The notes under the pieces are model-generated. The model did not search any database. It saw only the letters and a list, made by a program, of their open reading frames with translations, and was not told the DNA's origin. From the NCBI GenBank assembly GCA_021793835.1, contig JAJYRZ010000002.1:1-39176 (forward strand): a stretch of 39,176 bases of DNA. Direction: 5' to 3'. Origin of the DNA: Actinomycetes bacterium. GTDB taxonomy: Bacteria; Actinomycetota; Actinomycetes; Mycobacteriales; Mycobacteriaceae. Made by a program: the position numbers and the translations under genes. Below, piece by piece: positions 34,183 through 39,176 of this stretch. Within the stretch, counting starts at the first letter, position 1. Every line of letters begins with the position of its first letter.

Positions 34183-34890
34183 TCACTGCTCAGCCGGCGA
34201 GTCCAGTGCGGTGTCCAGCAGCCGGGTGAGCGTCTCGCCCGCCTGGGCGCCGGAGACGGCCAGGCGCCGGTCGGCGACGAAGAACGGCACCCCGCGCACC
34301 CCGATGCGCGCGGCCAGTGCCTCATCGGAGGTCACCGCCGCACCTTCCGGCCCGTCTTTCGGGGCGGCCAGCAGTGCGCGCACCGCCTCCTCCCCGATCC
34401 CGGCCTCGGCGCCGACGCCCACCAACACCTCCGGATCGTCGACGGCCAGTCCGCGGGTGAACCGGGCGTGGAACAGCGCGGTGAGCACCGCGGCGCCGCG
34501 GGCGGTGTCGGGCCCGGCCAGCTGCACCAGCCGGTGGGCATCGAAGGTGTTGGCCGAGATCGTCCGGCCGAAGTCCAGGGTCAGCCCGTCTTCGGCGCCG
34601 ACCGCGGACACCTGGTCGAACATCTGGCGCACCCGGTCCTTCGGCATGTCCTTCGACTCGGCGAGCGCCTCGAGTTCACTGCGTCCGGCCCCGACCGGGG
34701 TGTGCGGGTCGAGTTCGTAGGCGCGCCAGTGCACGGTGACCTGTCCGGCCCGGTCGTAGTCGGCCAGCGCGCGGTGCAGGCGGGTGGCGCCGATGTAGCA
34801 CCAGGGGCAGGCGATGTCGGTCCACACGTCGAGCACCGTGTGACGGTCACCGGTCTGCGCCGGCCCGGTGGGGTCCTGGTCTGCGGTCAC
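34183..34890 (-). CDS. DsbA-family oxidoreductase (FrnE-like)
   Basis: LDVWTDIACPWCYIGATRLHRAL (CxxC), DSBA-like C-terminus GVRGVPFFVADRRLAVSGAQ. Confidence 0.88.
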   Translation of the reverse strand: MTADQDPTGPAQTGDRHTVLDVWTDIACPWCYIGATRLHRALADYDRAGQVTVHWRAYELDPHTPVGAGRSELEALAESKDMPKDRVRQMFDQVSAVGAEDGLTLDFGRTISANTFDAHRLVQLAGPDTARGAAVLTALFHARFTRGLAVDDPEVLVGVGAEAGIGEEAVRALLAAPKDGPEGAAVTSDEALAARIGVRGVPFFVADRRLAVSGAQAGETLTRLLDTALDSPAEQ

Positions 34891-34951: not shown

Positions 34952-35713
34952 TCACCGGCCGAAGCGTCGGCGCCGGGTGCCGTAGTCGCGCAGGGCGCGC
35001 AGCAGGTCCACCCGCCGGAACTCCGGCCAGTACGTCTCGGCGAACCAGATCTCCGAGTAGGCCGACTGCCACAGCAGGAAGCCCGACAGGCGCTGTTCGC
35101 CGGAGGTGCGGATCACCAGGTCCGGATCGGGCTGGCCCGAGGTGTACAGGTGGGCGCCGATCCCCTCGGCGGTGACCGCCTCGATCAGCTCGGCGGGCGA
35201 GTCGCCGGCCGCGACGCGTTCGGTGAGCAGGTCGCGCACCGCGAAGGTGATCTCCTGACGGCCCCCGTAACCGACGGCCACGTTGACCTGAGTGCCGCCG
35301 CAGCCGTGGGTGCGTGCGGAGGCCGCGCGCAGCCGGTCGGCGTTGGCCTCGGGCAGCAGTTCCAGGGCGCCGACGATCTTCACCCGCCAGTCCTTCTCGG
35401 GCGCGGACAGCTCGTCGACCACGTCGGTGATGATCTCCAGCAGCACGTCCAGTTCGCTGGCGTCGCGCGAGAGGTTCTCGGTCGACAGCAGGTAGACGGT
35501 GACCATCTCCACCCCGGCCTCGTCGCACCACTGCACCAGCTCGGCGATCTTGCGCGCCCCGACCCGGTGACCGTGGGTGACGTCGGTGAAACCGTTCTCC
35601 CGCGCCCACCGCCGGTTGCCGTCGCACACCACCGCCACGTGGCGGGGCCGGCGGCCCGCATCGATCGCCCGGGTCAGACGACGCTCGTAGAGCCGATACA
35701 GCGGATTGCGCAC
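34952..35713 (-). CDS. cis-isoprenyl transferase (short-chain Z-farnesyl diphosphate synthase/UppS family)
   Basis: VAVVCDGNRRWARENGFTDVTHGHRVGARKI...VTVYLLSTENLSR; DLVIRTSGEQRLSGFLLWQSAYSEIWF. Confidence 0.93.
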   Translation of the reverse strand: MRNPLYRLYERRLTRAIDAGRRPRHVAVVCDGNRRWARENGFTDVTHGHRVGARKIAELVQWCDEAGVEMVTVYLLSTENLSRDASELDVLLEIITDVVDELSAPEKDWRVKIVGALELLPEANADRLRAASARTHGCGGTQVNVAVGYGGRQEITFAVRDLLTERVAAGDSPAELIEAVTAEGIGAHLYTSGQPDPDLVIRTSGEQRLSGFLLWQSAYSEIWFAETYWPEFRRVDLLRALRDYGTRRRRFGR

Positions 35714-35822: not shown

Positions 35823-35828
35823 TATCGT
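35823..35828 (+). promoter_or_regulatory. -10-like hexamer TATCGT, 7 nt before the leader ORF start
   Basis: TATCGT-ggctccc-GTGATG; same geometry as other leaderless-type starts in this window. Confidence 0.5.
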
Positions 35829-35835
35829 GGCTCCC

Positions 35836-35904
35836 GTGATGCAGATCCGCGCGTATTGGCGTTTTACCACGGCTCCGGATGGGGCCGTCGGTAGCTTGCG
35901 CTGA
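35836..35904 (+). CDS. Putative leader peptide VMQIRAYWRFTTAPDGAVGSLR* upstream of aroG
   Basis: Short ORF GTG/ATG...TGA with TAT TGG CGT TTT (Tyr-Trp-Arg-Phe), followed by a hairpin chain and aroG. Absent from the ORF track because of its size. Confidence 0.65.
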   Translation: MMQIRAYWRFTTAPDGAVGSLR

Positions 35905-35927
35905 TCGACGATTCATCCGGAGCCTGG
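35867..35927 (+). promoter_or_regulatory. Leader hairpin H1 overlapping the leader ORF
   Basis: CCA-c-GGCTCCGGATG (35867-35881) pairs with CATCCGGAGCC-TGG (35914-35927); inner CGTCG (35886-35890)/CGACG (35906-35910) and AGC/GCT around TTGC. Confidence 0.65.
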
Positions 35928-35951
35928 GGCAGAGACCATTCGTCTCTGCCC
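35927..35951 (+). terminator. Attenuator terminator-like hairpin H2
   Basis: GGGCAGAGAC-CATTC-GTCTCTGCCC, perfect 10 bp, followed by ttcgtcgtt (weak T-tract). Confidence 0.65.
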
Positions 35952-36026
35952 TTCGTCGTTACCGACGGGCTTCACGAATCGCACAGGCCGGGCCCGTCAC
36001 CGACAACACTCGGAAAGGGACACCCC

Positions 36027-37109
36027 GTGTCGAACACCTCCACCGTGACCGCCTCTTCGACGGTCGACCGCAACGTCGCACAGATCTCCGCACTGCCCAC
36101 CCCGGCCGAGATGCTGGCCGAGCTGCCGCTGGGCGACCGGCGCGCAGCCCTGGTCGAGCGCAGCCGCGAGGAGGTCGCCCGCATCCTCGACGGCACCGAC
36201 GACCGCATGCTGGTCGTGGTCGGGCCCTGCTCGGTGCACGACACCGAGGCCGCCATGGACTACGCCCGGCGGCTGGCGAAGGTCGCCGAGGCCGTGCGCG
36301 AGGACGTGCTGGTGGTCATGCGCGTGTACTTCGAGAAGCCCCGCACCACCGTCGGTTGGAAGGGTCTGATCAACGATCCGGACCTCGATGAGAGCTTCGA
36401 CGTCCCGCGCGGGCTGCGACTGGCGCGCCGGCTGCTGCTCGACGTACTCGACCTCGGGCTGCCGGTGGGCTGCGAGTTCCTCGAGCCGATCAGCCCGCAG
36501 TACATCGCCGACACCGTCTCCTGGGGCGCGATCGGCGCCCGGACGACCGAGTCGCAGGTGCACCGTCAGCTCGCCTCGGGCCTGTCGATGCCGATCGGTT
36601 TCAAGAACGCCACCGACGGCAACGTGCAGGTCGCGATCGACGGGTGTGGCGCCGCGGCCGCCCCGCACGTGTTCTTCGGCTCCGACGTCGACGGCAACAC
36701 CGCGGTGGTGCGCACCCGCGGCAACGCCGATGCGCACCTGATCCTGCGCGGCGGCCGGGCCGGGTCGAACTACGCGGCCGACGACATCGCGGCGGCCCGC
36801 GAGAAGCTGGCCGAGGCCGGTCTGCCGGATCTGCTGATGGTCGACGCCAGCCACGCCAACTCGGGCAAGAGCCATGTGCGTCAGGCCGAGGTCGCCCACG
36901 AGATCGCCGACCGGGTCGCCGCCGGTGAGGCCGGGATCGCCGCGCTGATGGTCGAGAGTTTCCTCGAGGCCGGCAACCAGTCCCTGGATGCCGAGCCGCT
37001 GGTGTACGGCAAGTCGGTCACCGATGCGTGCATCGACTGGACCACCACCGATGCGCTGCTCACCCGCCTGGCCGAGGCGGTGCGCGCCGGCCGCGCGGTG
37101 CGCAACTAG
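36027..37109 (+). CDS. aroG: 3-deoxy-7-phosphoheptulonate (DAHP) synthase, AroG class I
   Basis: RMLVVVGPCSVHDTEAAMDYARRL...MRVYFEKPRTTVGWKGLINDPDLDESFDVPRGLRLARRLLLDV; GTG start, upstream ggaaaggg. Confidence 0.95.
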   Translation: MSNTSTVTASSTVDRNVAQISALPTPAEMLAELPLGDRRAALVERSREEVARILDGTDDRMLVVVGPCSVHDTEAAMDYARRLAKVAEAVREDVLVVMRVYFEKPRTTVGWKGLINDPDLDESFDVPRGLRLARRLLLDVLDLGLPVGCEFLEPISPQYIADTVSWGAIGARTTESQVHRQLASGLSMPIGFKNATDGNVQVAIDGCGAAAAPHVFFGSDVDGNTAVVRTRGNADAHLILRGGRAGSNYAADDIAAAREKLAEAGLPDLLMVDASHANSGKSHVRQAEVAHEIADRVAAGEAGIAALMVESFLEAGNQSLDAEPLVYGKSVTDACIDWTTTDALLTRLAEAVRAGRAVRN

Positions 37110-37224: not shown

Positions 37225-39176
37225 TCAGTCCTTCCCCTGGCCCTGCAGGCGGGCCGTGAGCTCGCCCACGGTGGTGACCGGCATCGTGCACACGAAGCCG
37301 CGGCACACGTATGCGGTCGCGGCCCCGGCGGTCAGCGGGCGATCGGCCAGCAGCGGCGCGGCATCGGGGGCTCCTGCGACCACCACCGCCCCGCCGGGCA
37401 CGGCGCCGCGGGCGAAGCGTTCCAGGTCGGTGCCGGGCCCGTCGGCGGCGATGGCGACCTGGAGCGGTCCGTGCAGGGCCGCCTCGGCGACCGCCAACCA
37501 GTTGCCGGCCGAGCGCGACGCCTTCTCCAGCAGCAGGGCGCCGCGGGCCAGCGCCTGTTCGGCCAGGTCCCGGTAGCGGCCCGAGTCTTCCGGGTCGGTG
37601 AGCGCGGAGGCGGTCAGCAGCGCATCGGCGATCGACGACGCACCCGACGGGGTGGCCCCGTCGACCGGGTCGCGGGGACGCTGGACGAGGGCCTCGGCGT
37701 CGTGCGCGGTGTCGAACCAGGTGCCCGGGGCGGTGTCGTCGTGGAAGGCGGCGATCGCGGTGTCGAGCAGGTCGCGCGCGGCCGCCAGGCGATCGGGGTC
37801 GGCGTCGACCTGGTGCAGCGCCAGCAGTCCGGAGGCGAGCTGGGCGTAGTCCTCGAGCACCGCGTCGGCGTCACCGACCCTCCCGCCGAGCGAGGACCGG
37901 CGCAGCCGCCCGTCGATCAGGTGACGGTCCAGCAGCAGGTCGGCGCAGCGCCGGGCCGCATCGATCCAGTCGGTCCGGCCCAGCGCCAGGCCCGCCTCGG
38001 TCAGCGCCACGATCGCCATGCCGTTCCAGGCGGTGACGACCTTGTCGTCGCGGTCGGGCTGGACGCGTTCGTCGCGCGCCGTCAGCAGCGCGGCGCGCAC
38101 CCGCTCCCACCGGTGCGCATCGTCCGGCTCGGTGCGCAGCTGCAGCACCGAGGCGCCGGCTTCGAAGGTGCCGGCGTCGGTGACGGTGAGCAGGTCCGCC
38201 GCCCAGGCTCCGTCGTCCGAGCCGAGCACCTCGGTCAGCTGGGCGGGGGTCCACACATACGTCTCGCCCTCCACCTGTCCGGTGTCGGCGTCCAGGCCCG
38301 AGGCGAATCCGCCCTCGGCGGTGCCGAGCCGGTCGATCAGGAACTCGGCGGTCTGCACGGCGACCCGGGTGGCCAGCCGGTCCCCGGTGGCCCGGGCCAG
38401 GTGCGCGTAGACGCGCAGCAGCAGGGCGTTGTCGTAGGCCATCTTCTCGAAGTGCGGCACCGTCCAGGTCGCGTCGACGGTGTAGCGGGCGAAGCCGCCG
38501 GCGAGCTGGTCGTGCATGCCGCCGCCCGCCATCGCCTCGGCCGCACGCAGCACCGTGGCCAGCGCGGCCGGGTCCCCGGTGCGTTCGACGTGTCGCAGCA
38601 GCCCTTCCAGCAGCGAGGTCGGCGGGAACTTCGGTGCCCCGCCGAACCCGCCGTGGGCGGTGTCCTCACCGGCCAGGATCGCCGCGACCGCCTCGGCCAG
38701 CAGGTCCGCGTCCGGTGCGCGCTCACCGGCCGGCAGTGCGGCCGAGGTGCGCTGGAGTTCGGCGGTGATCGCGTCGGCCGCCCGGTCGACGTCGCCCGGG
38801 CGCTGCGCCCAGGTGTCGGAGATCGCGCGCAGCAACTGGGTGAAGCCGGGCATCCCGCCGCGCGGGGTCGGCGGATAGTAGGTGCCGCAGTGGAAGGGCC
38901 GGCCGTCCGGGGTCAGGAAGCAGGTCATCGGCCAGCCGCCCTGACCGGTCATGGCGACGGTGGCGTTCATGTACACCGCGTCGACGTCGGGACGTTCCTC
39001 CCGGTCGACCTTGATGCACACGAACAGCTCGTTCATCACCTCGGCGGTGGCGGCGTCGGAGAACGATTCGCGCGCCATCACGTGGCACCAGTGGCAGGTC
39101 GCGTAGCCGACCGACAGCAGCACCGGCACCCCGCGACGGCGCGCTTCGGCGAACGCCTCGTCGCACCACGGCCACC
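37225..39176 (-). CDS. Thioredoxin domain-containing protein (DUF255 / YyaL-SSP411 family), N-terminus cut by the window edge
   Basis: PVLLSVGYATCHWCHVMARESFSDAATAEVMNELFVCIKVDREERPDVDAVYM...GGWPMTCFLTPDGRPFHCGTYYPP; the frame stays open to the window end. Confidence 0.92.
   Translation of the reverse strand, partial: WPWCDEAFAEARRRGVPVLLSVGYATCHWCHVMARESFSDAATAEVMNELFVCIKVDREERPDVDAVYMNATVAMTGQGGWPMTCFLTPDGRPFHCGTYYPPTPRGGMPGFTQLLRAISDTWAQRPGDVDRAADAITAELQRTSAALPAGERAPDADLLAEAVAAILAGEDTAHGGFGGAPKFPPTSLLEGLLRHVERTGDPAALATVLRAAEAMAGGGMHDQLAGGFARYTVDATWTVPHFEKMAYDNALLLRVYAHLARATGDRLATRVAVQTAEFLIDRLGTAEGGFASGLDADTGQVEGETYVWTPAQLTEVLGSDDGAWAADLLTVTDAGTFEAGASVLQLRTEPDDAHRWERVRAALLTARDERVQPDRDDKVVTAWNGMAIVALTEAGLALGRTDWIDAARRCADLLLDRHLIDGRLRRSSLGGRVGDADAVLEDYAQLASGLLALHQVDADPDRLAAARDLLDTAIAAFHDDTAPGTWFDTAHDAEALVQRPRDPVDGATPSGASSIADALLTASALTDPEDSGRYRDLAEQALARGALLLEKASRSAGNWLAVAEAALHGPLQVAIAADGPGTDLERFARGAVPGGAVVVAGAPDAAPLLADRPLTAGAATAYVCRGFVCTMPVTTVGELTARLQGQGKD

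Follow-up and report, generated by a model that had tools for sequence, protein, structure and literature searches.

A predicted leader-peptide attenuator with tyrosine, tryptophan and phenylalanine codons 5' of a type I DAHP synthase gene in actinobacteria

Background

Attenuators of the trp, phe and trpL type, described in Escherichia coli and in Actinobacteria (PMC1262725, PMC8079986), carry codons for the pathway product in a short leader open reading frame (ORF) that is followed by a terminator, and as a rule each leader is devoted to a single amino acid. The actinobacterial survey of 2005 reported no conserved structure ahead of Phe or Tyr operons (PMC1262725). The closest described system is in Corynebacterium glutamicum, where aroF (cg1129) carries the Phe-Tyr-Phe leader aroR (PMC4046766; Neshat 2014 as cited in PMC11802643); aroF transcription rises on Phe limitation and Tyr is reportedly irrelevant (PMC11802643). 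Here a related element is described in a stretch of 39,176 nt, hereafter the window, from an actinomycete of the Mycobacteriaceae (contig JAJYRZ010000002.1 of assembly GCA_021793835.1; genome 3.0 Mb, 81% complete), in which a leader ORF with Tyr, Trp and Phe codons lies 5' of a type I 3-deoxy-D-arabino-heptulosonate 7-phosphate (DAHP) synthase gene.

Like aroR, the window leader stands before a type I DAHP synthase gene and has a predicted leaderless start. The codons differ, aroR being Phe-Tyr-Phe and the window leader Tyr-Trp-Arg-Phe; most of the leaders collected here, including that of the window, add Trp. With the trp-type attenuators the window leader shares the product codons in a short ORF ahead of a terminator-like hairpin, but it has codons for three amino acids rather than one. 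Leaderless regulatory short ORFs are also found in mycobacteria, of the same order, in the form of Cys-rich ORFs (Canestrari 2020), which PMC13236596 describes as acting by translation attenuation and which differ in carrying cysteine codons.

Results and Discussion

The leader ORF and its putative sensor codons

The window carries GTGATG at 35836, 7 nt past the hexamer TATCGT, as the start of an ORF with Tyr, Trp and Phe within four codons, followed by strong hairpins and the DAHP synthase gene (Table 1). The predicted folding energy of the leader RNA is -94.9 kcal/mol (z = -5.1), which 0/200 shuffles equalled. This succession of features had been put forward in the original prediction as a ribosome-dependent attenuator of aroG, and the sequence, the folding and the match of the gene to TIGR00034 confirm that the features are present. 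With good confidence, the element is predicted to attenuate the type I DAHP synthase gene through its leader peptide and would sense a shortage of charged Tyr, Trp or Phe tRNA. A built-in sensor for the three aromatic amino acids is very probable because the sequence, the RNA folds and the rare codons are kept across actinobacteria.

Table 1. Features of the leader and gene in the window (positions counted from the first letter of the window)
Feature	Position	Strand	Description	Basis
-10 promoter hexamer	35823..35828	+	TATCGT, 7 nt 5' of leader start; predicts leaderless transcript	read from sequence
Leader ORF	35836..35904	+	GTG start, 22 codons, VMQIRAYWRFTTAPDGAVGSLR, TGA stop 35902-35904; predicted transcript 5' end	sequence and ORF list
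Sensor codons	35854..35865	+	TAT (35854), TGG (35857), CGT, TTT (35863): Tyr, Trp, Arg, Phe	conserved codon counts in leaders
P1 upper hairpin	35871..35886	+	GGCTCC GGAT GGGGCC, within ORF, anti-antiterminator-like	pairing over 66 sequences
S1	35871..35881	+	GGCTCCGGATG, 5 nt past Phe codon, partner S2	covariation, spacing
S2	35914..35924	+	CATCCGGAGCC, starts 9 nt past leader stop, partner S1 or S4	pair counts, consensus folds
Terminator-like hairpin T	35926..35952	+	GGGGCAGAGAC CATTC GTCTCTGCCCT	covariation
U-rich tail	35952..35960	+	TTCGTCGTT, after T	U fraction
S4	35967..35981	+	GGGCTTCACGAATCG, could pair with S2 around T	pair counts
Shine-Dalgarno-like sequence of aroG	36012..36019	+	GGAAAGGG	read from sequence
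Type I DAHP synthase gene (aroG/aroF)	36027..37109	+	360 aa	TIGR00034, PF00793

The mRNA would start at or adjoining the GTG at 35836, because of the spacing of the -10 hexamer. A TANNNT hexamer lies 6-7 nt upstream of the leader start codon at 157/160 leader loci, in agreement with the 7 nt ahead of the window GTG. The pattern of TANNNT, 6-7 nt, [AG]TG and a short ORF in which Y, W and F fall within 4 codons has 1 occurrence in the window, against a mean of 0.0 when the full 39 kb were block-shuffled 200 times. Leaders in other members of the genus read VMQTRVYWRFTTAPDGAVGRAR and VIS.LSARAYWRFTTAPDGAVGRAR.

Among the 145 distinct leaders collected upstream of actinobacterial type I DAHP synthases, 133 contain all of F, W and Y, such that the short ORF carries codons for the amino acids of the pathway it would control. 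The codons chosen are unusual. The Tyr codon in the leaders is TAT in 152/160 cases and the Phe codon TTT in 143/181, while in 82 aroG genes at the same loci TAT accounts for 11/405 (2.7%) and TTT for 5/642 (0.8%). It had been suggested that TAT and TTT stand out in a genome of C-ending codons and this holds, the coding sequence of the window having TAT 33/173 and TTT 9/261. The natural reading would be that the sensing position favors the codon that is rarer and read by wobble. The leader TAT is outside all helices; the TTT is within the lower P1 stem, and its conservation could be due to this location.

The motif YWRFxxAPGGA is conserved as a peptide and peTrpL of Sinorhizobium acts in trans (PMC7298713), which would be in keeping with a short ORF that makes a trans-acting peptide and RNA hairpins that are incidental. 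Past the Phe codon, however, the conservation is at the nucleotide level, the Ala codon being GCT in 103/103, and the peptides vary (APGGA, ALGGA, ALEEP, APGEP, PARGG) while the S2 pairing is kept; a peptide acting in trans is therefore very improbable.

Conserved RNA helices

The original prediction had proposed a comparison with relatives, and this comparison shows the short ORF, the hairpins and the Y, W and F codons to be conserved and to covary. In the main alignment of 66 sequences, P1 is paired at 96.7% in the upper stem and 84% in the lower stem, with a U-A/C-G exchange at one pair, and two-sided changes are seen in 8/10 pairs of T. Taken together, 92.4% of the P1 and T cells are paired; double changes occupy 94 cells, against 24 in shuffled alignments, and the score is 0.258 against no more than 0.087 when slid. 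S1:S2 is 95.9% paired (26-59% when slid), with 10 double-change cells against 1.0 in shuffles; the shuffle controls leave shared ancestry in place and these covariation counts are uncorrected for kinship. More distant families keep the S1:S2 pairing through different bases, as in the match of GCUCUGGGUGGA to UCCACCCAGAGC. In the YFWF-type alignment (24 sequences) 92.1% of the S1:S2 cells are paired, and 6 cells have double changes against 2.0 in shuffles. S2:S4 is 91.9% paired, against 27-69% when slid, with zero double changes; it is without covariation support because S2 hardly varies. Plain z-scores for duplexes between S1 and the region downstream carried no information, the DNA being so rich in G+C.

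The spacing of the segments is also conserved. The Phe codon is 5 nt from S1 in 66/66, the leader stop is mostly 10-14 nt from S2, and S2 is 1-5 nt from T (1 nt in the window). The 8 nt past T have a U fraction of 0.53, compared with 0.13 for the remainder of the region across the 66 sequences, which places a predicted intrinsic terminator, made up of T and its U-rich tail, between the leader ORF and the gene.

A strong, conserved RNA structure 5' of an amino acid gene might also be a tRNA- or metabolite-binding riboswitch, of the T-box or another kind, with a coincidental ORF. Rfam, however, gave zero matches at the gathering score and only chance matches at a relaxed threshold, and the open frame, the start codon and the aromatic codons are kept over many families, which leaves this explanation extremely improbable. 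Indeed, no family in Rfam, Pfam or NCBIfam matches the window leader. The suggestion that this is not a standard annotation has to be qualified by the precedent of aroR, with its Phe-Tyr-Phe.

Ribosome position and the predicted terminator

Leader-peptide attenuation in the window would proceed as follows. Ribosomes would load without a leader on an mRNA starting at or near the GTG at 35836 and, were any of the three charged tRNAs short, would stall at codons 7-10. The stalled ribosome would cover the foot of P1, and S1, 5 nt downstream, would then be open to pairing with S2, which is past the ORF. With all three tRNAs plentiful, the ribosome would reach the stop codon, some 10 nt upstream of S2, blocking S1:S2 and leaving S2 free for S4; the terminator hairpin and U-rich tail, 1 nt past S2 in the window, would then end transcription before aroG.

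The S1:S2 pairing is shown by covariation, while its switching by ribosome position is predicted by folding models in which the RNA covered by the ribosome (12 nt past the A-site start) was removed and pairing then computed. In these models S1:S2 is at 0.97 when the A site holds Tyr or Trp and at 0.0 with the ribosome at the stop, where S2:S4 climbs to 0.55 on average. In the window S1:S2 is formed on ribosome-free RNA as well. The antiterminator pairing would thus depend on where the ribosome is, and the switching part in the models is S2, not T.

Several model results, in addition to the kinship left in the covariation counts, weigh against this account. A stall at Phe covers part of S1, so that S1:S2 reaches only 0.50. 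In the window S2:S4 is weak, at 0.09. T stands at about 0.96 in every modelled state (0.96-1.0 in all states in the window and the YWRF-type set, 1.0 throughout in the window), so that there is no thermodynamic on/off switch of the terminator in the window genome. T is formed whatever the ribosome does, and a classical exclusive antiterminator is therefore not what the models give for this genome; equilibrium folding did not yield mutual exclusion of antiterminator and terminator in the window or in the YWRF-type set. The idea that S1:S2 reaches into the base of T was considered and rejected, since at the Tyr stall the T pairs stay at or above 0.91, except for the outermost A-U pair.

A different arrangement is found in the Rhodococcus, Nocardia and Pseudonocardiaceae type (the YFWF-type set), in which there is no T and S2 itself forms the 5' arm of the next hairpin. 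There S2 is common to S1:S2 and to this hairpin, and the two therefore exclude each other. That the textbook arrangement is present in this type supports the same logic for the whole family. The Corynebacterium loci L013, L018 and L118 share the S1, S2 and T anatomy of the window. The start pattern of C. glutamicum aroF itself had no match in 201 genomes of its genus.

The C. glutamicum ilvBNC attenuator consists of an anti-antiterminator, an antiterminator and a terminator, the last two being base to base and sharing GCC (PMC11857589). The window element resembles it (see also the ilvB-II motif, PMC10272879) in having a leader ORF at or near the 5' end, an anti-antiterminator inside the ORF, and an antiterminator and a terminator base to base. 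In ilvBNC, however, GCC is common to both helices, whereas the helices of the window family are 1-5 nt apart and do not conflict in equilibrium folding. Because S1:S2 does not compete with T at equilibrium in the window genome, any relief of T by S1:S2 would require either a short overlap at the base of the hairpin or a stalled ribosome brought beside T. It is possible, if rather doubtful, that the antiterminator helix docks the stalled ribosome beside T instead of displacing T, such that the ribosome itself blocks the terminator, because S1:S2 would put its leading edge a few nt from the base of T, the distance from the Phe codon to S1 being an invariant 5 nt. If so, one leader would report the scarcest of the three amino acids.

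A rival reading would be translational attenuation, in which the stall is relayed through S1:S2, S2:S4 and S4:S5 to the aroG ribosome-binding site (RBS), which would be exposed on starvation as in ermC leaders, with T as a background terminator. The S4, S5 and RBS segments do recur, and in the consensus folds of the Mycobacterium-, Tsukamurella- and g93-type sets the Shine-Dalgarno region is the partner of S5 when the ribosome is not stalled. Attractive as this relay (S4:S5, S5:RBS) is in the consensus folds, it is not supported by the folding models of 174 loci, in which the RBS is not exposed in the stalled state (accessibility 0.410 stalled, 0.417 at the stop, p = 0.18); in the window the accessibility is 0.42 in both states. 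In the family alignment S4:S5 and S5:S6 have 71% and 64% paired cells, with double changes not clearly above shuffles. The relay is therefore unlikely.

Leader-peptide attenuation remains the favored reading, and the sequence comparisons indicate that this is a real and conserved regulatory element. The original prediction was right in kind, in that the ORF, the codons and the hairpins are conserved and covary. The element has a known relative in Corynebacterium; the exclusive antiterminator and terminator of the classical picture are not given by equilibrium folding in the window, and the antitermination step stands as a proposal.

The DAHP synthase gene and its surroundings

The gene had been called aroG and does encode a DAHP synthase (TIGR00034, 505 bits, 6.5e-152; PF00793, 3.2e-87). 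The name is ambiguous, as aroG is used for two families, and the window gene is the type I enzyme, of the aroF kind of C. glutamicum. Its product is 79-80% identical to that of a member of the genus and to that of Tomitella biformata, which suggests that the organism is related to Tomitella rather than being a Gordonia or Williamsia. Elsewhere the window genome encodes a type II DAHP synthase whose start is probably leaderless (L194, G000:C5:6744-8027), and no aromatic leader is present in the region inspected upstream of it.

Divergent to the leader is an isoprenyl transferase gene of the uppS type (34952-35713, - strand), beyond which is a DsbA/FrnE-like oxidoreductase (34183-34890, -) with only a weak DsbC match. 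A long thioredoxin-domain-like protein, judged by eye, is encoded at 37225-39129 (-).

Distribution in the actinobacteria

A close type I DAHP synthase is present in 248/398 genomes of the order of the window organism. Every one of the loci L081-L150, the first fetched of that order, has a short ORF with an aromatic cluster (YWRF, YFWF, YRWF, WYAYF or WRFYF) 130-260 nt upstream and a leader start codon 6-8 nt past TANNNT. The leader is also found in, among others, Jiangellaceae (Jiangella), Catellatospora, Glycomyces, Sanguibacter, Cellulosimicrobium, Isoptericola, Microbacterium and Subtercola. Among the DAHP synthase loci examined, there is no leader at those of Bifidobacterium or of non-actinobacteria, and it is missing before a more distant type I group (42-48% identical).

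The exact 13-mer TATTGGCGYTTTA is present as one copy per genome in 80/250 family genomes, against about 10 for the reversed control, and of the 40 places fetched all except L170 were confirmed to be upstream of aroG. With an RNA model, R1, 46/296 class genomes have a match, at essentially a single place in each (109 bits in the window); in a few genomes there is a weak second match, on the opposite strand of the same place.

R1 also matches, with E down to 1e-7, before a different gene in nine f31 genomes of 7-11 Mb (L195-L199, L206-L209) and one f34 genome (L205). In L197 and L205, the two loci covered by the domain scan, this gene encodes a divergent DAHP synthase domain (PF00793, partial) fused to chorismate mutase (PF01817). 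The f31 and f34 leaders are leaderless, for example MNRCFAFIEPAPGSRS, and have Phe codons, in some cases Tyr codons, and strong U runs past T. A second branch of the DAHP synthase superfamily thus seems to be under the same switch, through Phe and, at some loci, Tyr codons.

Some loci depart from the general pattern. In L217 and L218, of the Pseudonocardiaceae type, the frame and the aromatic codons are lost while S2-like and RBS-proximal segments are kept, and these are a natural test case for the loss of regulation. L234 is a type I DAHP synthase paralogue without a leader, preceded by TTAGGTTAGGCTAACC, which resembles an iron-regulator site, and is perhaps for metallophore synthesis. L016, labelled as the Acidobacteriaceae isolate BOG_194, is on a contig with a Tsukamurella-like aroG and leader, and the label is probably a binning error.

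Conclusions

No published description of the element outside Corynebacterium was found, in a literature search of incomplete coverage. The three-amino-acid variant appears to be new and is widespread in actinobacteria, the kind being known earlier only as the Phe/Tyr version in C. glutamicum, and it is widespread yet has no entry in Rfam, Pfam or NCBIfam. The element raises the question of how an antiterminator helix without terminator overlap works.

In E. coli, separate enzymes and repressors are used at the DAHP synthase step. All three aromatic amino acids depend on this committed step, and one predicted leader that has a codon for every one of them would amount to a minimal three-input sensor where the pathway begins. 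The element bears on the engineering of aromatic overproduction in actinobacteria.
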